Assembly: GCA_012841935.1 (NCBI GenBank)
Contig: DUTS01000073.1
Span: 1 to 36,082, forward strand
Direction: 5' to 3'
DNA from: Clostridia bacterium
Lineage (GTDB): Bacteria; Bacillota; Peptococcia; DRI-13; DTU073
DNA length: 36,082 bases
Shown: positions 3,949-21,274 of the stretch, in pieces
Numbering within the stretch: position 1 is the stretch's first letter
How the letters are laid out: each line of letters opens with the position of its first letter
Made by a program: the position numbers and the translations under genes
Notes under the pieces: model-generated
What the model was told of the DNA's origin: nothing
What the model saw: the letters and a program-made list of their open reading frames with translations, nothing else
Database searches by the model: none

Positions 3949-4554
3949 TTAAAGAAATTCGATTTTAAATTTTTGCCGAAATCGTTTTAAAATTGGATAA
4001 AATAATGGTCCCAAAATTATAGAAAACATTAAATTTCCCAAAGCATGGATAGTATCAAACGGAAAACTGGCCAAACAAACCACTAACCAAGTTTTTAAAT
4101 TTAATGGATAAATAAAAGCCAACCAGTGCCAAAAATTAATCAACCAACCAAATAAATAACCACAAAAGAAAGCTAACCAAGCAAACTTTTTTGAATTATA
4201 ATCTACCGCTTTTCTTCCCAAAATTCCGGCCAAAGCACCACATAAACCCCAAGCTAACATTTGCCATGGAGTCCAAGGGCCTTGTCCCAGAAAAAAATTA
4301 GAAACTAGTGCAGCCAAAGCACCTACTAAAAATCCTTTTTGACTGCCCCAAACATAACCTGTAATCATTACTAAGAAAGTTGTAGGTTGTAGGTTAGGAA
4401 AAAAGGCAAACGGCAGGCGAAAAAGAGCCGCTAAAGTAGTCATTGTAGCCAATAGTGCAATTTCCTGAGCTGTAACCACTTTTTTTTCAAAATTATAGAA
4501 AACCGTGCCCAGACAAAAAAGTAAACATACTAAAGCAATAATGGCCCCACTCAT
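3949..4554 (-). CDS. ECF transporter S component, probably for cobalamin or a corrinoid
   Basis: A 201-residue hydrophobic protein with about six membrane segments. It is the substrate-binding S subunit of an energy-coupling factor vitamin importer. The segment NLQPTTFLVMITGYVWG, a glycine/alanine-rich helix (FLVGALAALVSNFFLGQGP) and the following TPWQM are typical of a Clostridial S-component family. ATG at 4554 overlaps the stop of the preceding gene as ATGA, a coupled start; a GTG at 4578 in the same frame would add eight residues but lacks a clear ribosome-binding site. It is last in a cobalamin-riboswitch operon with its own EcfT and fused EcfA. The substrate is inferred from that context. 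It might be a CbrT-like protein, but I cannot confirm this without alignment. Confidence 0.82.
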   Translation of the reverse strand: MSGAIIALVCLLFCLGTVFYNFEKKVVTAQEIALLATMTTLAALFRLPFAFFPNLQPTTFLVMITGYVWGSQKGFLVGALAALVSNFFLGQGPWTPWQMLAWGLCGALAGILGRKAVDYNSKKFAWLAFFCGYLFGWLINFWHWLAFIYPLNLKTWLVVCLASFPFDTIHALGNLMFSIILGPLFYPILKRFRQKFKIEFL

Positions 4555-5564
4555 CCTAAATTCAACCCTTTTTTCCACACCTGAAAAGTGTGCAAAAGAA
4601 ATTCCTTAAAATTTGCTAACGAAAAAGTCTTTTTCGTCAACTCCACATTAACCGGATAAAAATTATCGGTTAATCCTACTAAGGCATATGCCGTCATTAA
4701 TACTGTAGAAGAATTAACCCCTTCCATCCATTGGAAAGAACCATCTTCATTTTGTAAAGCAATTAAATGATCCCTAGGGCTTTTTCCTGCAGCTAACCAT
4801 TTGTCCCCAATAGGATTTTCACCAATAGCAATTAAACCTTGAATTACCCAAGCATTAGTAGCTGTATTAGGTTCCTCCCCCCACCAAGCAAACCCTCCAG
4901 TCAGGGTTTGCCGACTTTTTAAATATTCCAAAGCCCGCTGCACTACAATTGCCTCCTTCTCCACACCTAATATGGCTAAAGCACTCAAAGCTATTCCGGT
5001 ACTATCGGGATCACTGTCCCCTCCCACAGCCCAAGCAAAACCACCATCTTCATTTTGCTGTGCCACTAACCAGTTTAAAGCCTTTTCTTTTTCCGGAATT
5101 GCTTTCCCAGCACTAACCAAAGCCAAAACTGACCATAAATGCCCATTGACTAATTCTGTTTCTGCAAATTCCTTTCTAGCAAATTGCCCACTAGACAATT
5201 GCCAACATCTAAGCTCTTCACTTAATTCTTCCTTTTCACCTATAGCCGTTAAAGCCAATATAGTTCTGGCATAATCAGTTATTGATGTCAAAGGCCTCTC
5301 CTTAGCTAAATAAGTTAAAGTTTTACTGTCAATTTCTTCACCAGCCGCTGCCAAAGCCATTACTACCCAATCAGTCACTTCCGGACTACTAGGCAATCCC
5401 TTTTCCAAGGGAAAACCCCCATCAGAATTCTGTAGTGCAGTTAAATAATTAATCCCCATTTCAACTTGTTGACAGACCCCTTCAGTTTTACTCGGAAAAA
5501 TTAATAATAATCCTAAAAGGCCCCAAAAAAAGATTGTCCTAAATGTTTTTTTCGTGAACAGCAT
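4551..5564 (-). CDS. secreted alpha/alpha-barrel protein, intrinsic-factor/terpene-cyclase-like fold
   Basis: A 337-residue exported protein. Residues 1-29 form a signal peptide (TKK, then a hydrophobic run ending near KTEG) with no lipobox. The rest is a series of helix-pair repeats marked by turns such as QNSDGGF, QQNEDGGFAW, LTGGFAWW and QNEDGSFQW, the hallmark of squalene/prenyltransferase-type alpha6/alpha6 barrels. The same barrel forms the N-terminal half of mammalian intrinsic factor and transcobalamin. The DXDD acid motif of true cyclases is not evident, so binding is more likely than catalysis. The gene overlaps its upstream and downstream neighbours in the B12 operon. I infer a role in capturing cobalamin or presenting it to the membrane transporter. 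Confidence 0.82.
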   Translation of the reverse strand: MLFTKKTFRTIFFWGLLGLLLIFPSKTEGVCQQVEMGINYLTALQNSDGGFPLEKGLPSSPEVTDWVVMALAAAGEEIDSKTLTYLAKERPLTSITDYARTILALTAIGEKEELSEELRCWQLSSGQFARKEFAETELVNGHLWSVLALVSAGKAIPEKEKALNWLVAQQNEDGGFAWAVGGDSDPDSTGIALSALAILGVEKEAIVVQRALEYLKSRQTLTGGFAWWGEEPNTATNAWVIQGLIAIGENPIGDKWLAAGKSPRDHLIALQNEDGSFQWMEGVNSSTVLMTAYALVGLTDNFYPVNVELTKKTFSLANFKEFLLHTFQVWKKGLNLG

Positions 5565-7221
5565 TTTTCAATCCCTCCAATAACTGATAACCCTGCTGAA
5601 AGGTAAGTGGTGGTTCTGATACCATATTACGAAATAATTTTATCAATTGAGGTGTAAAAAAAAGCATTTCTTTAAATACTGCTGCTTTCTCACCCCAACT
5701 AACTATTTTACCCTGTGATAACAAAGCAATTTTTGTAGCATATTCAGCAGCAAATTCTAAATCATGGGTTACCATAAAGATAGTTTTTCCCTCCGCGGAT
5801 AATTCCCAAAGCAATTTACCCAAAACTGCCTTTGCCTGATAATCAAGTCCCCGCGTGGGTTCATCTAACAAAATTAAATTAGGCTCACTGACCAAAACGG
5901 TTCCTATAGCAGTTAACTGTCTTTCCCCCACACTTAAATCACGGGGATAACCATCGGCAAATTTACTAAGACCCAATTTTTCCAAATAAAAATCTACTTT
6001 ATCCCCTAATGACTTTCGTAAATTAAACAAAGAAAACTCAAACTCCTCACGTACTGTTGACTGAAAAAGATAATCCCCTGGATATTGTGATAGATAACCA
6101 ATTTCAGCAGCCCATTTTTCCAATGCTCGAGTCCCAATTTCCTCTTCTAAATAATAAATTTTACCTTGGGTAGGTGTTAACAAACCGCGAATTAGTTTTA
6201 AAAGTGTCGTTTTCCCGGCAGCATTTTCCCCTAATAAAACCCAAAAATCCCCGGGAAACAAATCTAAATTAACATTATTTAATACCTGTAGACCATGATC
6301 ATAATGATAAGACAGATTTTCAATCCTTAAAAGCGGCTTCTCAGCGGTGACCATCTTTTTTTTAACACTTTCCTTAGGGAATAAAGGTGCAGTTTCTGTT
6401 AATAAGGGACTTAATAATTGTCTTCCGGCTTTTACACTTAAGGGGATTTCCCAAAAACCACATTTGGCAAATAAATGTGGTATGATTGGCAAAAATAATT
6501 TTTTATGCTTTACTGACCACTGGGCTAACCTTTGCCCACAGGTTTCATTTTGAATAATTTCACCTTTTTCCATAATTAAAATTCGGTCTGCCAAATGATA
6601 ACATCTTTCCGGTTTTTGTTCGATTAAAATAATGGTCATACCCAATTCCTCATTTAACTTACGGATAAAAGTTAAAATCTGTTCAGCGGCTAAAGAGTCC
6701 AATTGTGAGGTAGGTTCATCTAAAATTAAAATTTCCGGTTGAACGGCTAAAACAGAAGCCAAAACTAGCTTTTGTTTTAAACCACCGGATAAAACGGTGG
6801 TTTTCCGATTTAAATAATCAGTAAGTGAAAAAAAGGTGCTTAACTCCCAAAGCCGTTTTCGCATTTGCTCTACACTTAATCCCAAATTTTCCATGCCAAA
6901 AACAAATTCCTGTTCCACCTGACTAAAAATCAATTGACTTTCCGGATCCTGATTAACCAGCCCTATTTTAGAAAGTAGGGCTTTTCTTTTCCAAGTACTT
7001 AACCTTTGACCTTCCAAATAAACATCCCCTTTAATACTACCCCCATAAAACTTAGGTACCAAACCAGCTAGAGCACGAACCAGCGTCGACTTTCCACTTC
7101 CTGAACTACCCAATAAAAGCACAAATTCCCCAGTCATAATGTCCAAATTTATTTTCTTCAAAGCCGCCTCTTGGGCCTCTGGATAATAATAGGTTAAATC
7201 TACTACTTGATAACTGACCAT
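5539..7221 (-). CDS. energy-coupling factor ATPase, fused EcfA-EcfA'
   Basis: A single 560-residue chain holding two ABC ATPase domains that power the ECF importer. Domain 1 has Walker A GSSGSGKST (38-46), signature LSGGLKQ (about 144-150) and Walker B LILDEPTSQLD. Domain 2 has Walker A GENAAGKTT (331-339), signature LSVGERQ, Walker B LILLDEPTRGLD and the H-loop VTHD. In domain 1 the H-loop reads LIEQKPE, with Gln where the switch His is expected, so the two sites may be unequal. ATG at 7221 was preferred over an upstream in-frame start at 7263 because GGGGGTGG lies about 7 bases before it. It overlaps ecfT by 19 bases and the barrel gene by 26. Confidence 0.92.
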   Translation of the reverse strand: MVSYQVVDLTYYYPEAQEAALKKINLDIMTGEFVLLLGSSGSGKSTLVRALAGLVPKFYGGSIKGDVYLEGQRLSTWKRKALLSKIGLVNQDPESQLIFSQVEQEFVFGMENLGLSVEQMRKRLWELSTFFSLTDYLNRKTTVLSGGLKQKLVLASVLAVQPEILILDEPTSQLDSLAAEQILTFIRKLNEELGMTIILIEQKPERCYHLADRILIMEKGEIIQNETCGQRLAQWSVKHKKLFLPIIPHLFAKCGFWEIPLSVKAGRQLLSPLLTETAPLFPKESVKKKMVTAEKPLLRIENLSYHYDHGLQVLNNVNLDLFPGDFWVLLGENAAGKTTLLKLIRGLLTPTQGKIYYLEEEIGTRALEKWAAEIGYLSQYPGDYLFQSTVREEFEFSLFNLRKSLGDKVDFYLEKLGLSKFADGYPRDLSVGERQLTAIGTVLVSEPNLILLDEPTRGLDYQAKAVLGKLLWELSAEGKTIFMVTHDLEFAAEYATKIALLSQGKIVSWGEKAAVFKEMLFFTPQLIKLFRNMVSEPPLTFQQGYQLLEGLKNAVHEKNI

Positions 7222-8096
7222 TTTTTCCACCCCCAATTTAACAACCCCGGAATTAAAAAACAAAAGCCTAAAATTAAGGCTCCCCCTATTTCTATCTTAC
7301 CAATACTTTGCAAAGTGGGATAATAGTGATAAAGAGCTTGCCCGCTAGCAATTAACCATAAACTAAAAACTAACCCCCCAAACATAAAAAAGAACATAAT
7401 TTTATCCTCTTTCCTCCATTTAGGAACTCGATAATTGCTTCTTTTACCTAAACCATAACCTCTCATTTGCAGAGATTCAGCCAATTGAAAAGCTCTTTCC
7501 AAACTAGATAACAAAAAAATTTTTAAACTGGGCAGTAATTGTCTTATTTTTTCCCTTTTTTTTCCTTTTTGCAGTTCCTGTCCGCGTGTACGCTGTACTT
7601 CAATAATTCGCAGCCAATCAGCATACATTAACGGAAATAAACGCAGAGCCAGTCCCAAAATAAGGGCAATTTTTAAATGTCCCATTCCCAAATATTGTAC
7701 CAAGCGGTCAGTTTCCAAAACAAAGATAAACCAACAAAAAACACTAATCATAATTAATAATCTTAGTCCCATCCCAATTCCATAAACAAATGCTTCCCAA
7801 GTAATAAACAGTTTTCCCCAACCAGGTAGACGCGGACCCATCCATAATACCGTACTACCAGTACGCACCAAAAACAAATTAAAAAGCACAATTAAAAAAA
7901 AGAGTCCCCCACTTAATTTTAAATAATTCAGACAGGCTTTTCCCCAACCGAAAAAACAGCTGACACCAACTATACTAAAAAAAAGAACCAATAAAAATAA
8001 AGGGTGATTAAAGAGAAGTGCCAAAAAAATGACACTAATTAAGTAAAGCAAAATAACCAAAGGATGAAATTCAAAATTTGCCGTTGGTTTTAACAT
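7203..8096 (-). CDS. ecfT: energy-coupling factor transmembrane component T
   Basis: A 297-residue membrane protein that links the S component to the ATPases. There are hydrophobic segments at about 12-60, 62-80, 100-125 and 240-290, and a cytoplasmic coupling region in between. The two coupling-helix signatures of EcfT are recognisable as QRTRG and LQMRGYG, both variants of the Ala-Arg-Gly motif that contacts the ATPases. ATG at 8096 has AGGG seven bases upstream. It lies 9 bases after the lipoprotein gene and overlaps the ATPase gene, which indicates one operon. Its dedicated position with both A and S subunits marks this as a group I ECF system and not a shared housekeeping module. Confidence 0.9.
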   Translation of the reverse strand: MLKPTANFEFHPLVILLYLISVIFLALLFNHPLFLLVLFFSIVGVSCFFGWGKACLNYLKLSGGLFFLIVLFNLFLVRTGSTVLWMGPRLPGWGKLFITWEAFVYGIGMGLRLLIMISVFCWFIFVLETDRLVQYLGMGHLKIALILGLALRLFPLMYADWLRIIEVQRTRGQELQKGKKREKIRQLLPSLKIFLLSSLERAFQLAESLQMRGYGLGKRSNYRVPKWRKEDKIMFFFMFGGLVFSLWLIASGQALYHYYPTLQSIGKIEIGGALILGFCFLIPGLLNWGWKKWSVIK

Positions 8097-8105
8097 TCTT
8101 TTACC

Positions 8106-9092
8106 CTAATTTAAAAGAGGTAAAGACAGGAGTCCATCATCAAAAAGAACGACTCCCCCCCAACCCTTAATTTTTTCTGGTGTATTAATTAATAAATTAC
8201 AAGCTTTTTCTACACCCTTTTCATTAAGACCACTAATTAACCATAGTGGTGCCCAATCAGCTGCTTTGGCAGCAAAAGCCACAATTACCCCCACCTCTCC
8301 ACTTAATTCTTTTAATTTTTCGCCCTGATAATCATACAAATGGAGACTTGCCCCTGTAAAATGTAGAAAACCATTTTTTTGAAAACCTTGATTTAATTGC
8401 TGTAAATAATTATTATTTTCTAAATCAGACCACTTACCAATAACTAGCCGCGGTCCTTGATGAGGAGTAAATTCAGCAGCAAATATTTCACTATCTATTT
8501 CTTGAACTCCTAATGATTTTAAAGAATCCAGCAATTCAAAGGCTTTTGCCTTTTGGGTGGGGGTATAAACTATTTTCGTCGGCTTTATTTTGCCCTGATA
8601 ACCATGTAAAAAAGGTTCAGGATAACAGCCAATTAGGGCATTAGCACTGTGCTGTATTTGCCATTGGTGATAATCCCACCATATTTTTTCACCCACAGTG
8701 GGAAAATAGTCTAAAGCCCCCACATCGGCAAAAAGACCATTAACATAAAAAAACCAATCATATCCCCTAGTGGCTTTTAAATCTTTAATACCGCATAAAT
8801 AGCTGCCCCCATAAGCTGTTTCAATTTCACCAGGGAAAATTTCATGTAGTATATTTAACACTGCCTTATTTTCCGCACATACTTCCCGCTCCTCCAAAAT
8901 AGTACGACCATAATCACGTGTAATTAACAAAGTAAAAAAATCTGCAGATGGCTCTACTTCCTCTTTTTTTGGTTCCTCCACAACTATTATTTTTTCTTCT
9001 TCAATTAAAACTGGTTCTGCTTTAGGCGTACAGGCCGTAAATAAAAACAAAAGTATTAAGAGCAGCAAAGCAAATATTCGTTTATTAGACAT
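8106..9092 (-). CDS. lipoprotein with DUF4430 (transcobalamin-C-like) domain plus a C-terminal domain of unknown type
   Basis: A 328-residue exported lipoprotein. A hydrophobic leader ends in the lipobox FTAC (Cys21), followed by an acidic Glu/Lys-rich spacer to about residue 50. Residues 52-145 match the DUF4430/transcobalamin-like C-terminal domain: a beta segment TLLITRDYG, then YGGSYLCGIKDL, the hallmark WFFYVNGLFA, and GEKIWWDYHQW. In transcobalamin this beta domain forms half of the B12 clamp. Residues 150-328 form a second domain that I do not recognise. ATG at 9092 (or TTG at 9095) follows GGGGG at 9101-9105. It is second in the riboswitch operon and is likely a membrane-anchored corrinoid binder. 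Direct B12 contact is inference. Confidence 0.85.
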   Translation of the reverse strand: MSNKRIFALLLLILLFLFTACTPKAEPVLIEEEKIIVVEEPKKEEVEPSADFFTLLITRDYGRTILEEREVCAENKAVLNILHEIFPGEIETAYGGSYLCGIKDLKATRGYDWFFYVNGLFADVGALDYFPTVGEKIWWDYHQWQIQHSANALIGCYPEPFLHGYQGKIKPTKIVYTPTQKAKAFELLDSLKSLGVQEIDSEIFAAEFTPHQGPRLVIGKWSDLENNNYLQQLNQGFQKNGFLHFTGASLHLYDYQGEKLKELSGEVGVIVAFAAKAADWAPLWLISGLNEKGVEKACNLLINTPEKIKGWGGVVLFDDGLLSLPLLN

Positions 9093-9104
9093 CAAACATT
9101 CCCC

Positions 9105-11873
9105 CTATGCTACCAACTCAATTTTAGCTTCCTCAGGCCAACAAAGCACCCGGATACCCCAATAATTTGCAAAATAGTCTAGCGGAACAAACGTTCTGCC
9201 CTCTTTAATTTCCGCAGCTATAGGGAGGCGCTCACTTGTTTTGCCTACCACTAAGCGAAACGACTCCTCAGCAAAATGCATTTCAACCATTTTGGTCTCT
9301 GCTTGCCAAACCACCTCAGCACCCATTTTTTCCGCTATAAAACGCAGGGGTAGAAAAAAAGTACCTTTTGCCTGATAAAAGGAGACCTCTATCTCTTCTT
9401 CCTGATTATTCACTATCACTACCGCTTTTTCCCCCTCAATAACTATTTCCCGTAATTCAGACACTTCAACCAGACTATAAATTCCCGGTTTATCGATTAA
9501 AAAAAGAAAGCTTTTCCGAACAGAATCATATACTCCCCCCAATTTTACCGGATACCAATTACCCCTGACATCCTTTTCATACCTAATACCGCAAAGCAGG
9601 GCTCCTTCGCTAATCTTTAATTCATCCCGGGCTAAATCAATTGTTAGGGCCACTGGTTTCGTAAAACTTGTATTTTCCCCACTTACTTTAATTTGGGGAA
9701 ATCCAATTGCTTTAAAAGCACCACTAACCTCTTTCTCCAAAACTTCTATTACCAAGGGCACCTCTGTATGCCAAATCTGGCTAATTTCTTCTTGTGGTGG
9801 TAATTTCTTTTCTGGCTTTATTTTGTTTTCAGGTGTCAAACTATATAACCATTCAACAAAATCACCCTCTTTTAAATAATAGCTCCCAATGGAAGTAAGA
9901 ATAAAATCTCCATTTACTTTTACCATCCAACCATTTAAACCTTGGTTCCTTTGTCCAGCTATAGAAGTAATAAAAGTATAGTCACCTTCATAAGGAAGTT
10001 TTGTTTTAAGTAAAGCCTCAAAAACCGATGTTTCTCCTTTATTCAAAGTCACTTTTCCGAAAAAAAGACATTCTCGATTTTTTCCCGTAATCAGCATCTT
10101 TACTGTTATCTGATCTTCACGCGGCTTACTTTGACTTTTTTCCTCAACCAGTAATTGCACAGGAGGCGTCCTTACCAAACCACTATCCGCAACAAAATCA
10201 ACATTAGGTTTTTCAGCCGTTATAAAATAAGTACCTTTATTTTTAATTTTGAATTCAATTACACCCACCTGATCCGTATAACCAGCAGTTACTACCTCGA
10301 AAGGCTTTTCGGCGGAATAATAAGTTACCAAGGCTTCCTTTACCGGTTCACCATCCTCATAAATAACCCTTAACTTTACCCGGTTATTTGCTTTAATTTC
10401 CGCGGTCTCCAAAATTATTTCACCTAAATTTGTGGAACCATTCCCCGAAAGAACCAAACTATCACCAGTTTGATAAATTTCTCGATAAGGCACTATTAAC
10501 CAATAAAAATCAGGACTGCCTTGGCCATTAATTTTTTCCAAAAAACCACTTTCACCAATCTCTATTTGATAACCGAATTCCTCAGCACCACTATGTAAAA
10601 TATCTAAATAATTGGCATCTGCCGGTACCGTAATTTCTTTAGTGGGTAAAATGGTAGTCTGAGGACCTTCAATCCGCAGAAAAACGTTAATCAATTTTAC
10701 TCCACAATTTTTACTTAAACTTTGATAAACTACTTTAATTTGAAAATAGCCAGGGGCTGTTCTAGTTACCCATACACCCTCACTTGTTTTTTCCAAGTGA
10801 GCAATTTCCTTTTGTTCAAGGAACCATTCCGCCTCTTGAGTAACCTCCTTTTTAGTTCCATCAATAAAAATAGCTTCTACGACAAATAAAGCTTTCTCCC
10901 CTACAGCCAATTGAATATTCTCTTGTGACATGTTTAAACCAAGTGCCATTTCCGAAGCAGGCTCTACACCTAATGAAAGTGCTGCCTCCAGTGCCCAAGT
11001 ATTACTAGCCATAGTATTAATCCCTTGTAATGCTTGTTCCCGTAAAAAATCCAAGACATTATATCCAGCAACACTTAACCAAGGCTCAAGATCTAGCTGC
11101 TGCAAAGTTAAAAGTACTTCCACACTATCAATTAAAGGATCATCAAATCCAGCTTCATCCAAAAAACTGCCATTAGGTTTTTGCCTTTCTTTTAACCAAA
11201 AAAGACCTGTAGTGATGGCCTCTTTTACCCTTAACTTTAATTCTTCATCTTCAGTAAATTCCCCAAAATAACCCAAGGCCTGTATAGCTTGGGCGGTAGC
11301 CTGTAAATCCTGAAAAGCACCTTCCGGCCAAGCCTTTACTTGCGAGTCTTGTGTTTCAAGTAGATAAACAAGTATTTTTTCCACTTCTAATTCTGTACCT
11401 AGCCCAGCCCGGCTTAAATAAGCAAAAGCAGCTAAATCACTATAAACCTGATTATCGAAAGAGCCATTGGCCTGTTCTACTTGTTTTTTTTGTAAAAGCC
11501 CCCATAATTGCTCAGCCAATTCCTCCTCAGCCCATTCCTTAGCTAATAAATATCCTTCGACAATTTTTTTCGCTGCTGCAGATTTTTCATTTAATGATTC
11601 CGCAATTAATTCTTGTAATTCTTTTTTAAAATTTGTATCTTCCCGCTCCCAAGCCTCAATATTTACACCTGCCTTAGAAAGTAAATAACCATCAAAAGCA
11701 GTAAAATTACCCCAGGTGCCATCTACTGCTTTCCCTTCCTGATAAAAACTATAATTATTACTAATCGCCTGCTGAGCCAAATTATCAAAAGCCAAAGTAA
11801 TTTGGTTCATCCCTAAAAATAACAACCCACAAAGTAGTATAAAGATAATTTTTTTGCTGTATTTTTTCTGCAT
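9105..11873 (-). CDS. large exported multidomain barrel/DUF4430 protein, candidate B12-binding surface protein
   Basis: A 922-residue exported protein, first gene of the cobalamin-riboswitch operon. In order: signal peptide (1-29); alpha/alpha-barrel repeats (30-310) with turns such as QANGSFD and KPNGSFLDE; an Ig-like BIG2-type domain (315-395); a DUF4430-like domain (398-490, FYWLIVPYRE); a carboxypeptidase-regulatory-like beta domain (495-577); a second DUF4430-like domain (588-680, GWMVKVNGD); a beta-rich region (700-805); and a C-terminal copper-amine-oxidase-N-like domain (810-922, FLPLRFIAEKMGAEVVW and RTFVPLDYFA), a common surface module in Clostridia. Barrel plus DUF4430 mirrors intrinsic factor and transcobalamin. 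ATG at 11873 follows AAGGAGGG. No lipobox or LPXTG is seen, so the C-terminal domain may hold it at the wall. Confidence 0.85.
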   Translation of the reverse strand: MQKKYSKKIIFILLCGLLFLGMNQITLAFDNLAQQAISNNYSFYQEGKAVDGTWGNFTAFDGYLLSKAGVNIEAWEREDTNFKKELQELIAESLNEKSAAAKKIVEGYLLAKEWAEEELAEQLWGLLQKKQVEQANGSFDNQVYSDLAAFAYLSRAGLGTELEVEKILVYLLETQDSQVKAWPEGAFQDLQATAQAIQALGYFGEFTEDEELKLRVKEAITTGLFWLKERQKPNGSFLDEAGFDDPLIDSVEVLLTLQQLDLEPWLSVAGYNVLDFLREQALQGINTMASNTWALEAALSLGVEPASEMALGLNMSQENIQLAVGEKALFVVEAIFIDGTKKEVTQEAEWFLEQKEIAHLEKTSEGVWVTRTAPGYFQIKVVYQSLSKNCGVKLINVFLRIEGPQTTILPTKEITVPADANYLDILHSGAEEFGYQIEIGESGFLEKINGQGSPDFYWLIVPYREIYQTGDSLVLSGNGSTNLGEIILETAEIKANNRVKLRVIYEDGEPVKEALVTYYSAEKPFEVVTAGYTDQVGVIEFKIKNKGTYFITAEKPNVDFVADSGLVRTPPVQLLVEEKSQSKPREDQITVKMLITGKNRECLFFGKVTLNKGETSVFEALLKTKLPYEGDYTFITSIAGQRNQGLNGWMVKVNGDFILTSIGSYYLKEGDFVEWLYSLTPENKIKPEKKLPPQEEISQIWHTEVPLVIEVLEKEVSGAFKAIGFPQIKVSGENTSFTKPVALTIDLARDELKISEGALLCGIRYEKDVRGNWYPVKLGGVYDSVRKSFLFLIDKPGIYSLVEVSELREIVIEGEKAVVIVNNQEEEIEVSFYQAKGTFFLPLRFIAEKMGAEVVWQAETKMVEMHFAEESFRLVVGKTSERLPIAAEIKEGRTFVPLDYFANYWGIRVLCWPEEAKIELVA

Positions 11874-11892
11874 TTTTTACCCTCCTTAATTG

Positions 11893-11933
11893 TAAAAAAA
11901 AGCCTTAGTACTTCATGAAAGAAATACTAAGGC
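11893..11933 (-). terminator. riboswitch-controlled intrinsic terminator
   Basis: On the minus strand GCCTTAGTA and TACTAAGGC form a strong stem with further pairing (TTC/GAA) inside, followed by eight T. It lies between the cobalamin aptamer and the ribosome-binding site of the first operon gene. It is therefore the expected OFF structure when B12 is bound. Confidence 0.85.
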
Positions 11934-11975
11934 ATACTTATATTTTAACCTCTTTCGCGAAGGTTTTTAGTGGCT

Positions 11976-12130
11976 GTAATAGGCAGGTCTCCTGACTTGT
12001 GGCTGCTTACTTTTCTTACCTTCCCGAGATTAACCAGTGGTAAGAAAACTTTATTCCCACTTACAGTGGCGCGTCCGTTCGAGATTTGCACTCGCTTCCC
12101 TATTCTCCCTTTTTAAAGGGCACCTATTAC
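11976..12130 (-). promoter_or_regulatory. cobalamin riboswitch aptamer
   Basis: The minus strand shows the conserved B12-box AGTCAGGAGACCTGCCT (plus positions 11981-11997), the GCGCCACTGTAA core segment and the upstream GGTGCC element. The outer stem is formed by GTAATAGG with CCTATTAC. These are the defining elements of the adenosylcobalamin/cobalamin aptamer. It is followed about 45 bases downstream by an intrinsic terminator and then the 922-residue barrel protein gene. Cobalamin binding should therefore repress the whole ECF operon, by knowledge of the class. Confidence 0.95.
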
Positions 12131-12179
12131 CTATTAAATTTTATGTTGCACCTTAAGTTAACATGCCTAACAAATTCCG

Positions 12180-12716
12180 TCAAGCCTCTTCAACGAAAAA
12201 TCTCTTAGTACGTTTATAAATTAAAAAGGTAACTAGTGAAGAAATGCTATACTTCACCAAATTAAACGGAAAAACTACTTTAACAATTAAGGTCAAAGCA
12301 CCAGTTGTGGGAAAACCCCATAATGGAAAAAAGACAAAATAATTAGCCAAGGCCATTATCAAGGCTGCGGCAACGGCCCCACAAACTAAAGCTAAAATCG
12401 CCCTTTTTAATGTTTTATGCTGTTGATAAACCATACCGGCAATTAAAACCATGGTTCCCCCAGAAACAAAGTTAGCCGCCATACCAATAGCACCTGCCTT
12501 GGAGGCTCCCAAAAAATAACCAAGTGTGCATTTTAAAAATTGTACCAAGAGCCCACCCAATGGTCCCCAAGCAAAAGTAGCCAACAGTCCCGGAATATCA
12601 CCAGGATCATAGGTTAAAAAGTTGGGAAAAGGGGGTATGGGAAAAAAGATAGTGTGCATTAATAATATTGCCGCAGCTGTTAACACGGCAATCCGAACTA
12701 GTTTTTTTGTATTCAT
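12180..12716 (-). CDS. ribU: riboflavin ECF transporter S component
   Basis: A 178-residue membrane protein with about five to six helices. The PFPNFLTYDPGDIPGLLA segment after the first helix is characteristic of RibU, the riboflavin-binding S subunit of ECF importers. It lies directly behind an FMN riboswitch, which independently supports riboflavin or FMN as the substrate. ATG at 12716 has GGAGGAG about 9 bases upstream. No A or T subunits accompany it, so it must borrow an energizing module; in many Firmicutes that is a shared ecfAA'T. The module in the adjacent B12 operon is one candidate. Between its stop and the B12 aptamer (50 bases) I see no terminator. Confidence 0.95.
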   Translation of the reverse strand: MNTKKLVRIAVLTAAAILLMHTIFFPIPPFPNFLTYDPGDIPGLLATFAWGPLGGLLVQFLKCTLGYFLGASKAGAIGMAANFVSGGTMVLIAGMVYQQHKTLKRAILALVCGAVAAALIMALANYFVFFPLWGFPTTGALTLIVKVVFPFNLVKYSISSLVTFLIYKRTKRFFVEEA

Positions 12717-12746
12717 TAGTCTTTCTCCTCCTTCTTTTTTAAGACA

Positions 12747-12776
12747 ACAAAAAACCCAAGGGATATCCCTCGGGTT
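12747..12776 (-). terminator. intrinsic terminator of the FMN riboswitch
   Basis: On the minus strand AACCCGAGGG pairs with CCCTTGGGTT around ATAT and is followed by a T run. It lies between the RFN aptamer and the ribU ribosome-binding site, as expected for transcription attenuation by FMN. Confidence 0.85.
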
Positions 12777-12805
12777 AATTAATAATAAACATCATCAGAT
12801 CCCCC

Positions 12806-12916
12806 TCCTTCTCCCCTCCAGACTATAACTGTCGGCTTCGGAATTACACCGAATCAACCTTAAAAGGCTCGCGGGCTTTTACCGCCGGTAAGGAATTTCA
12901 CCTCTCCCCGAAGGAA
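12806..12916 (-). promoter_or_regulatory. FMN riboswitch (RFN element)
   Basis: The minus strand holds the RFN signature segments in order: TTCCTTCGGGG, GGTGAAATTCC, TACCGGCGGT, AGCCCGCGAGC, GATTCGGTGTAATTCC, AAGCCGACAGT, then AGTCTGG and GGGAGAAGGA closing the outer stem. FMN binding would favour the terminator just downstream and reduce ribU expression. The next gene is the riboflavin S component, which fits. Confidence 0.96.
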
Positions 12917-12932
12917 CTATTAAATTATTTTA

Positions 12933-12961
12933 ATTATAAAACAAAGTTTCAACAAAATCAA
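12933..12961 (-). promoter_or_regulatory. sigma-A promoter for the RFN-ribU transcript
   Basis: On the minus strand a -35 box TTGATT (12956-12961) and a perfect -10 box TATAAT (12933-12938) are 17 bases apart. Initiation would be near 12926, just before the RFN aptamer. The -35 box overlaps the last codons of the upstream gene. Confidence 0.7.
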
Positions 12962-13632
12962 CGCTCATCGCGTTCTTCTATAGTACTTTCTCTTTCTCCT
13001 TTTTCACTTCTTACATTTTCGATTCCTTGGTAATAATCTTGAACACGTGGTTGTATATTTTTTTCAATTTCATCTATAGCCCGTTTAAGAGCTTTTAATC
13101 CACCATCATTATTATGAACACTATACTTTTCTTCCAACTCATATAATCTTGATAATTGCTTCTCAAATGTTTCAGTAATGGGTGTACCATGATATTCACT
13201 ACTGATTAACTGTTCACCCAACTCCTGCCATGCATTTACTCTTTTTTCGTAGTCATCCCTAACCTGACGCACTTTTTCATAAACTTCTACCAATTTTTCC
13301 GCCTTCTGTTGATCTGGTTCATTAGCAATAACACCCCTAATTTCCGATAATAGAGGATTAAATTCATGATCAATTTCCCAAATTTTATCCCGGGCAATAT
13401 GTTTATTACCCATAGTTCTATCTTTTTCTGCAGCTTCTTTTAATTTTTCCTTGTCAGCAAGTGGTCGCTGAATAAGTGCGGCGATATCTGTAAAATTTCC
13501 TCCCCGAAAATCATGTTCACTGAAATAAATGGGTAGGCCTTCCATTTTTTTAATAACCTCTTTTAATCGCAAATCATAATTATTCTTTTCCGTCCCCGTC
13601 AATTTTGATTTAATATTTTCCCACAACCCCAC
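12958..13632 (-). CDS. predicted helical cytoplasmic protein, family unknown, paralogue of the broken gene at 22983-23867
   Basis: A soluble, charged protein of 224 residues with no signal peptide or membrane segment. It is mostly helical, with coiled-coil-like stretches (AEKLVEVYEKVRQVRDDYEKR). I do not recognise a family. It resembles the disrupted gene at 22983-23867 in three places: KLTGTEKNNYDL against KLTGSEEINYGL near the N-terminus, EKRVNAWQELG against QKRVEKWLALG, and GGLKALKRAIDEI against RGLKALEEIKGEI. GTG at 13632 (MGLWENIKSKL) was chosen because GGGGGG lies 9 bases upstream. A GTG at 13662 has its purine run touching the start. A promoter with TATAAT lies at 13731-13759. The last residues overlap the ribU promoter. 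Confidence 0.65.
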   Translation of the reverse strand: MGLWENIKSKLTGTEKNNYDLRLKEVIKKMEGLPIYFSEHDFRGGNFTDIAALIQRPLADKEKLKEAAEKDRTMGNKHIARDKIWEIDHEFNPLLSEIRGVIANEPDQQKAEKLVEVYEKVRQVRDDYEKRVNAWQELGEQLISSEYHGTPITETFEKQLSRLYELEEKYSVHNNDGGLKALKRAIDEIEKNIQPRVQDYYQGIENVRSEKGERESTIEERDER

Positions 13633-13730
13633 TCCTAATTTCCCCCCTTTATTTTTATCCACCTTTTCAAATCTTGCCCTTTTTACAGGCCCCCCGATAT
13701 GTTTTCACAACCTCATCCTATTCTCCAATA

Positions 13731-20903: not shown

Positions 20904-21270
20904 TGAGTAAGCCGGATGACCGCGGATACAAGTACCGAAAGGTAGTATCTGAGGAAAGTCCGAGCTCCAAAGGGCAAAGTGCTGGATAACATCCAGTGGA
21001 GGTGACTCCGAGGATAGTGCCACAGAAACATACCGCCGATGGTGAGTTTTTCACACAGGTAAGGGTGGAATGGTGAGGTAAGAGCTCACCGGCAATCAGG
21101 CGACTGATTGGCCGGGTAAACCCCACTTGGAGCAAGACCGAATAGAGGAGCCATGAAACGGCCCGTTTCGCTCCCGGGTAAGGTCGCTAGAACCGGTGAG
21201 TAATCACCGGTCCAGACAGATGGTCATCACCTCATTTTGAGGTACAGAACTCGGCTTATAGGCTTACTCA
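20904..21270 (+). ncRNA. rnpB: RNase P RNA, bacterial class A
   Basis: The catalytic RNA that trims tRNA 5' leaders. The ends pair as TGAGTAAGCC with GGCTTACTCA (helix P1). Universally conserved segments are visible: GAGGAAAGTCCGAGCTCC, GGGTAAACCCC, GAGCAAGACCGAATAGAGGAG and ACAGAACTCGGCTTA. The ACAGAAACATACCGCC and GGTAAGGGTGGAAxGGTG segments fit the class A layout. The length of 367 bases is normal. A promoter lies upstream and a strong terminator immediately downstream. Short reading frames antisense to it are incidental. Confidence 0.96.
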
Positions 21271-21274
21271 TTAA

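Follow-up and report, generated by a model that had tools for sequence, protein, structure and literature searches.

We analyzed a 36,082-nucleotide stretch of the Clostridia bacterium contig DUTS01000073.1 (the window), in which six tightly packed genes lie behind a cobalamin riboswitch aptamer. They encode a complete energy-coupling factor (ECF) transporter with an S component of the CbrT family, together with three exported proteins whose domains and folds are those of the animal B12 carriers transcobalamin and intrinsic factor. We consider it highly probable that the operon is repressed by cobalamin and serves a monoderm in scavenging corrinoids, with intrinsic-factor-like capture feeding a CbrT-type ECF transporter. 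A first-pass annotation, made from the sequence alone, had placed six genes behind a cobalamin aptamer, and gene calls together with RNA and protein family searches of the window recovered every one of them. The elements of the operon, all on the minus strand, are listed here in gene order.

11965–12142, minus strand: cobalamin riboswitch aptamer (RF00174), 107.2 bits (gathering score 31.5), model positions 1–189 (full length)
11933–11902, minus strand: intrinsic terminator between aptamer and first gene, with a 13 bp stem, a loop of 6, and a T8 tail
9105–11873, minus strand: D922, exported, 922 residues; signal peptide, barrel, immunoglobulin (Ig)-like domain, DUF4430, Cu-amine-oxidase-N-like domain
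8106–9095, minus strand: D329, predicted lipoprotein, 329 residues; signal peptide, lipobox-like FTAC, DUF4430 (E = 1.7e-10)
7203–8096, minus strand: ECF-T (EcfT/CbrV); PF02361 CbiQ, E = 4e-16
5539–7263, minus strand: fused ECF ATPases A-A' (CbrU type), two ATP-binding cassette (ABC) domains; probable ATG start at about 7221
4551–5564, minus strand: TOR337, exported alpha/alpha toroid, 337 residues; PF00432 (E = 1.7e-13) and PF13243 (E = 2.3e-12); signal peptide
3949–4578, minus strand: ECF-S, CbrT (cobalamin) family; match to PDB 6fnp_A, E = 1.2e-14

The ECF transporter and its regulation

Sequence comparison puts the S component in the CbrT family. Its single-sequence match in the PDB is chain A of 6FNP, which is CbrT of L. 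delbrueckii, and a profile built from 14 S-component sequences matched the same entry with an E-value of 1.7e-37, the next S components being 4hzu (0.0065) and the riboflavin component 3p5n (0.015). Transport of cobalamin and cobinamide has been demonstrated for the L. delbrueckii protein (PMC5997447), so the assignment to B12 import, which the first-pass annotation had drawn from the riboswitch and the folds, now has a footing beyond the riboswitch. The importer read earlier as S, T, and fused A-A' was likewise borne out in full. The two ABC domains of the fused ATPase scored above the cut-off for TIGR04520 (342 bits) and TIGR04521 (334.5 bits). An EcfT, two EcfA domains, and cobalamin-linked regulation are all present, as expected of the ECF-type cobalamin transporter CbrTUV, and the operon's ECF appears to be of this type, transport itself having been shown for the L. 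delbrueckii homolog. Since CbrUVT has already been catalogued as a B12 transporter (PMC6593275; PMC8123684), this part of the system is not new. Since a second, different ECF-T is encoded elsewhere in the genome, the operon's ECF module is probably a dedicated one.

The aptamer is the sole cobalamin riboswitch of the source genome. The hairpin between it and the first gene is the top terminator-like site of the region, is present in the minimum free energy fold as well, and is the probable expression platform, acting by transcriptional attenuation. The gene for D922 has a good Shine-Dalgarno sequence ahead of it.

We also looked at the demand of the host for B12. The source genome is a 1.32 Mb draft, 95% complete, in which one clear B12-binding protein was found, namely MetH with its B12-binding domain (L204, G000:C23). 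This MetH lacks an activation domain, and a separate Met_synt_B12-like activation protein is encoded directly downstream. CbiC was not found in the draft. The presence of MetH together with the missing CbiC points to a B12 auxotroph; as far as a single marker enzyme and a draft genome can tell, the host probably cannot make the corrin ring and needs B12 for methionine synthase.

Exported proteins and their kinship to animal B12 carriers

The first-pass annotation described three exported proteins built from alpha/alpha barrels and DUF4430 domains. Both folds are indeed present, and they are joined in D922 only: TOR337 is a barrel without DUF4430, and D329 carries DUF4430 without a barrel. In D922, a signal peptide is followed by the barrel (residues ~30–300), an Ig-like domain (~310–390), DUF4430 (616–678; E = 3.5e-11), and a Cu-amine-oxidase-N-like domain (821–909) that perhaps serves in envelope attachment. 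The last two domains score over threshold, and the N-terminal barrel is visible from the structure model. By eye, residues ~395–490 (window positions 10400–10690) resemble a second, degenerate DUF4430, although Pfam detected none there. D329 had been described as a 328-residue protein; it is an exported DUF4430 protein as described, with a length of 329 residues and, besides DUF4430 at residues 79–143, a C-terminal domain (~165–329, window positions 8106–8600) without a Pfam match. That C-terminal domain is common to Syntrophomonas/Desulfotomaculum-type homologs and to some actinobacterial and archaeal ones, and is absent from most Bacilli. The D329 N-terminus reads ...LFLFTAC, and its orthologs read ...LAGC.

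Sequence profiles and structure models both lead from these proteins to the animal carriers. Single-sequence searches of the PDB with D922 and D329 gave no useful match, and a full-length D329 profile reached transcobalamin-2 only at E = 0.28, its signal being diluted. We instead built a DUF4430 domain profile from 42 bacterial domains of CbrT-type operons and searched it against all PDB chains. The top three matches were haptocorrin (2.9e-4), 3u7z (9e-4), and the beta domain of transcobalamin-2 (4e-3). The AlphaFold model of D922 is confident in both domains, with a predicted local distance difference test score near 90 for the barrel and about 80 for DUF4430. In a Foldseek search of the PDB with this model, transcobalamin and haptocorrin held ranks 1–12 and intrinsic factor ranks 15–16, and most of the top alignments ran over ~670–700 columns, enough to span the barrel and DUF4430.

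We then modeled a homolog from Paenibacillus tengchongensis (L194), which lies in a CbrT operon and has barrel and DUF4430 contiguous; it was chosen because the Bacillus fusions have the reverse order (DUF4430-DUF4430-barrel). Its Foldseek ranks 1–15 are all transcobalamin, haptocorrin, or intrinsic factor (best 5.6e-9), ahead of any terpene cyclase. The architecture of intrinsic factor and transcobalamin, a barrel followed by DUF4430 on one chain, is thus found in both D922 and the P. tengchongensis protein, although in D922 about 280 residues of extra domains separate the two. The likeness to these carriers that had been noticed from the sequence holds in both kinds of search.

Several observations weigh against equating these proteins with the animal carriers or giving them a part in uptake. 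The E-values of the DUF4430 profile against the PDB carriers are modest. The Pfam family of eukaryotic cobalamin-binding proteins (PF01122) is matched by neither D922 nor TOR337 at E-values up to 1, and residues 30–300 of D922 contain no cysteine and hence lack the alpha-domain disulfides of animal carriers, such as Cys65-Cys78 of transcobalamin (PMC5599065). In the models, the orientation of the domains is unlike that in holo-transcobalamin, with a root mean square deviation of about 17–29 Å over both domains. A need for ligand in assembly would account for such a mismatch, which is nevertheless no proof of it. Finally, E. coli regains B12 uptake when it is given L. delbrueckii CbrT and its ECF module but no exported partners (PMC5997447), so such partners are not essential for transport. 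Given the missing PF01122 match and barrel cysteines, we do not place the exported proteins in the eukaryotic family as defined; they probably share its folds and work like intrinsic factor. The alpha and beta domains of transcobalamin, when made separately, assemble only with cobalamin present (PMC5599065), which by analogy makes a split carrier of TOR337 and D329 plausible.

Conservation of the arrangement and surroundings of the operon

Relatives from the same taxonomic order share this six-gene arrangement, which is complete in four genomes (G001, G013, G014, and G024) and interrupted by contig ends in four others (G003, G004, G006, and G010), so it is not due to chance. Scanning genome contigs with the single D329 protein found no relatives, and we replaced it with an S-component profile. 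This search gave at least 590 loci, of which the best 80, all of them named loci, were examined. A gene for a DUF4430 protein adjoins the CbrT-family S gene in 72 of these 80 loci and an ECF-T gene in 73; in several of the remainder, the S gene lies close to a contig end. When 72 loci were searched with a covariance model for the core of the aptamer, 58 had a cobalamin riboswitch on the same strand, upstream of their S gene.

The same association is seen from the side of DUF4430, which occurs in 121 of 399 genomes of the phylum sample. For the best DUF4430 locus of each of 40 of these 121 genomes, a same-strand RF00174 match lay at most 10 kb upstream in 24, against 0.4 expected under random placement (P about 2e-40, a guide only, as some genomes are related and loci were picked mostly by score). 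Homologous operons lying mainly under riboswitches for another ligand, named earlier as what would refute the corrinoid reading, are thus not what we observed. Across the phylum sample, the DUF4430 count per genome correlates weakly with the riboswitch count (rho 0.44); within the order there is no correlation, and these counts were not used as evidence.

The arrangement of a CbrT-type ECF with DUF4430 or barrel proteins is widespread and varied. Minimal systems have a single small DUF4430 protein adjoining CbrT (L083, L094, L099, and L111), and elaborate ones have multiple barrels and DUF4430s, LPxT-like or SLH ends, and A-A'-S fusions. In six loci (L035, L037, L082, L085, L096, and L100), A-A' and a CbrT-type S component form one chain of ~830–940 residues. 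Putative capture proteins are also seen in some Actinomycetota and in Thermoplasmatota-type archaeal metagenome-assembled genomes. The archaeal loci L143, L145, L152, and L195, on contigs labeled Thermoplasmatota, Aciduliprofundum, Euryarchaeota, and DHVE2, have DUF4430-T-AA'-S operons with no cobalamin riboswitch match to the aptamer-core model. At L036 and L050 (G013), large genes for barrel and DUF4430 proteins follow a cobalamin riboswitch, and no ECF genes were detected in their vicinity; these loci are possible stand-alone capture operons. In one 2.9 Mb genome (G336, L101), there are 26 cobalamin riboswitches along with 13 DUF4430 domains.

Directly upstream of the B12 operon, a flavin mononucleotide (FMN) riboswitch and a solitary RibU-like ECF S component (12180–12919) form an operon of their own, separate from it, so that two vitamin importers, each under a riboswitch, stand back to back. 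Between the FMN riboswitch and addA lies a gene for a 234-residue protein without a clear family (12958–13662). A class A RNase P RNA adjoins addB (20904–21274, plus strand), and an IS21-type transposase with its IstB partner lies at the contig end (33660–36031).

Proposed mechanism, alternatives, and known systems

We propose that when B12 is scarce, the riboswitch would permit read-through of the terminator. D922 on the cell-wall side, TOR337, and the lipoprotein D329 would then bind corrinoid outside the membrane, holding it between barrel (alpha) and DUF4430 (beta) in the manner of transcobalamin and intrinsic factor. From there it would pass to the CbrT-type S component, and the operon's own ECF module (T and A-A') would drive its import with ATP.

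The E. coli result described above fits an alternative in which ECF-CbrT takes free B12 unaided and the exported proteins pirate corrinoid, bind corrinoid-carrying surfaces, or have adhesion or wall roles under B12 control. Surface modules on the big exported proteins (Ig-like, Cu-amine-oxidase-N, SLH, or LPxT-like) are in keeping with this, and Bacteroides BtuG removes B12 from intrinsic factor (PMC6143338). However, barrel and DUF4430 both match B12 carriers specifically, and the minimal systems consist of just a small DUF4430 protein and CbrT; we regard this account as unlikely. About as improbable is that the imported ligand is not B12 but a corrinoid-related one such as cobinamide, cobyrinate diamide, or cobalt. 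Cobalamin riboswitches can also govern cobalt transporters, CbrT imports cobinamide too (PMC5997447), and in one review cbrUVT is filed under "cobyrinate diamide uptake" (PMC8123684). Against this, the operon's S component is of the CbrT kind, and with no CbiC in the genome cobalt alone would be useless to the host; this account differs from capture and import of B12 solely in the preferred corrinoid.

A reading of the barrel proteins as squalene-cyclase/prenyltransferase-type enzymes, present in the operon by chance, is very hard to credit. The Pfam names matched by TOR337 are Prenyltrans and SQHop_cyclase, and it has sequence matches in the PDB to prenyltransferases and cyclases. Yet the barrel proteins are exported and, to our knowledge, enzymes of this class are not expected outside the membrane. 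D922 matches transcobalamin ahead of any cyclase. The catalytic DXDD motif of cyclases is not kept in TOR337, which has DPDS, and DXDD (as DXDDT) is retained in just 14 of 143 barrel proteins; we dropped the enzyme reading after this check.

Returning to corrinoid capture, little is known of how traces of B12 are caught outside the Gram-positive membrane. One large survey treats B12 transporter identification as an open problem (PMC6593275). Our data suggest that many Gram-positive bacteria catch B12 extracellularly, much like human carriers. Going further, we lean toward a widespread, undescribed corrinoid-capture apparatus of the Bacillota, whose split or fused carrier domains feed ECF-CbrT; it would share ancestry with the animal B12 carriers and might even have given rise to them. 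If the exported proteins bind corrinoids, bacteria and mammals share one two-domain B12 clamp, animal transcobalamin and intrinsic factor gain plausible prokaryotic relatives, and a large family of DUF4430 and "squalene-cyclase-like" surface proteins becomes directly testable. In a literature search made mostly without subscription sources, we found no paper that describes such capture or relates it to the animal carriers, and those consulted that mention DUF4430 assigned it no bacterial B12 role. In lactobacilli, an automatic annotation reads "additional lipoprotein component of putative cobalamin ECF transporter" (PMC9963975), and this component is of the DUF4430 type. A cbrS gene adjoining cbrT has been named and left undescribed (PMC5997447).

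Among known systems, ECF-CbrT (CbrUVT) of L. delbrueckii shares a homologous S component, EcfT, two ATPases, and linkage to B12 genes or a riboswitch; unlike it, the operon described here has a probably dedicated module with a fused A-A', as well as three exported intrinsic-factor-like proteins. BtuFCD is similar in pairing an extracytoplasmic binding protein with an ATP-driven importer, but family searches found no BtuF, BtuC, or BtuD homolog and no periplasmic-binding-protein fold among the six genes. BtuG/BtuB of Bacteroides also captures B12 with a surface lipoprotein ahead of a transporter and is encoded beside B12 transport genes, although BtuG is a protein of diderm Bacteroidetes working with the outer-membrane BtuB, and the operon has no such partner. 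A solved bacterial structure of the DUF4430 type, RUMGNA_00854 (PDB 3u7z, "putative metal binding protein"), ranked high in the profile and Foldseek searches. By fold and profile, the best counterparts are animal intrinsic factor, transcobalamin, and haptocorrin, with an N-terminal alpha6/alpha6 barrel and a C-terminal DUF4430 beta domain. Unlike those carriers, the exported proteins of the operon are bacterial surface proteins with domains partly on separate chains and with extra Ig or wall domains, and they would feed an ECF transporter, whereas the animal carriers feed endocytosis.

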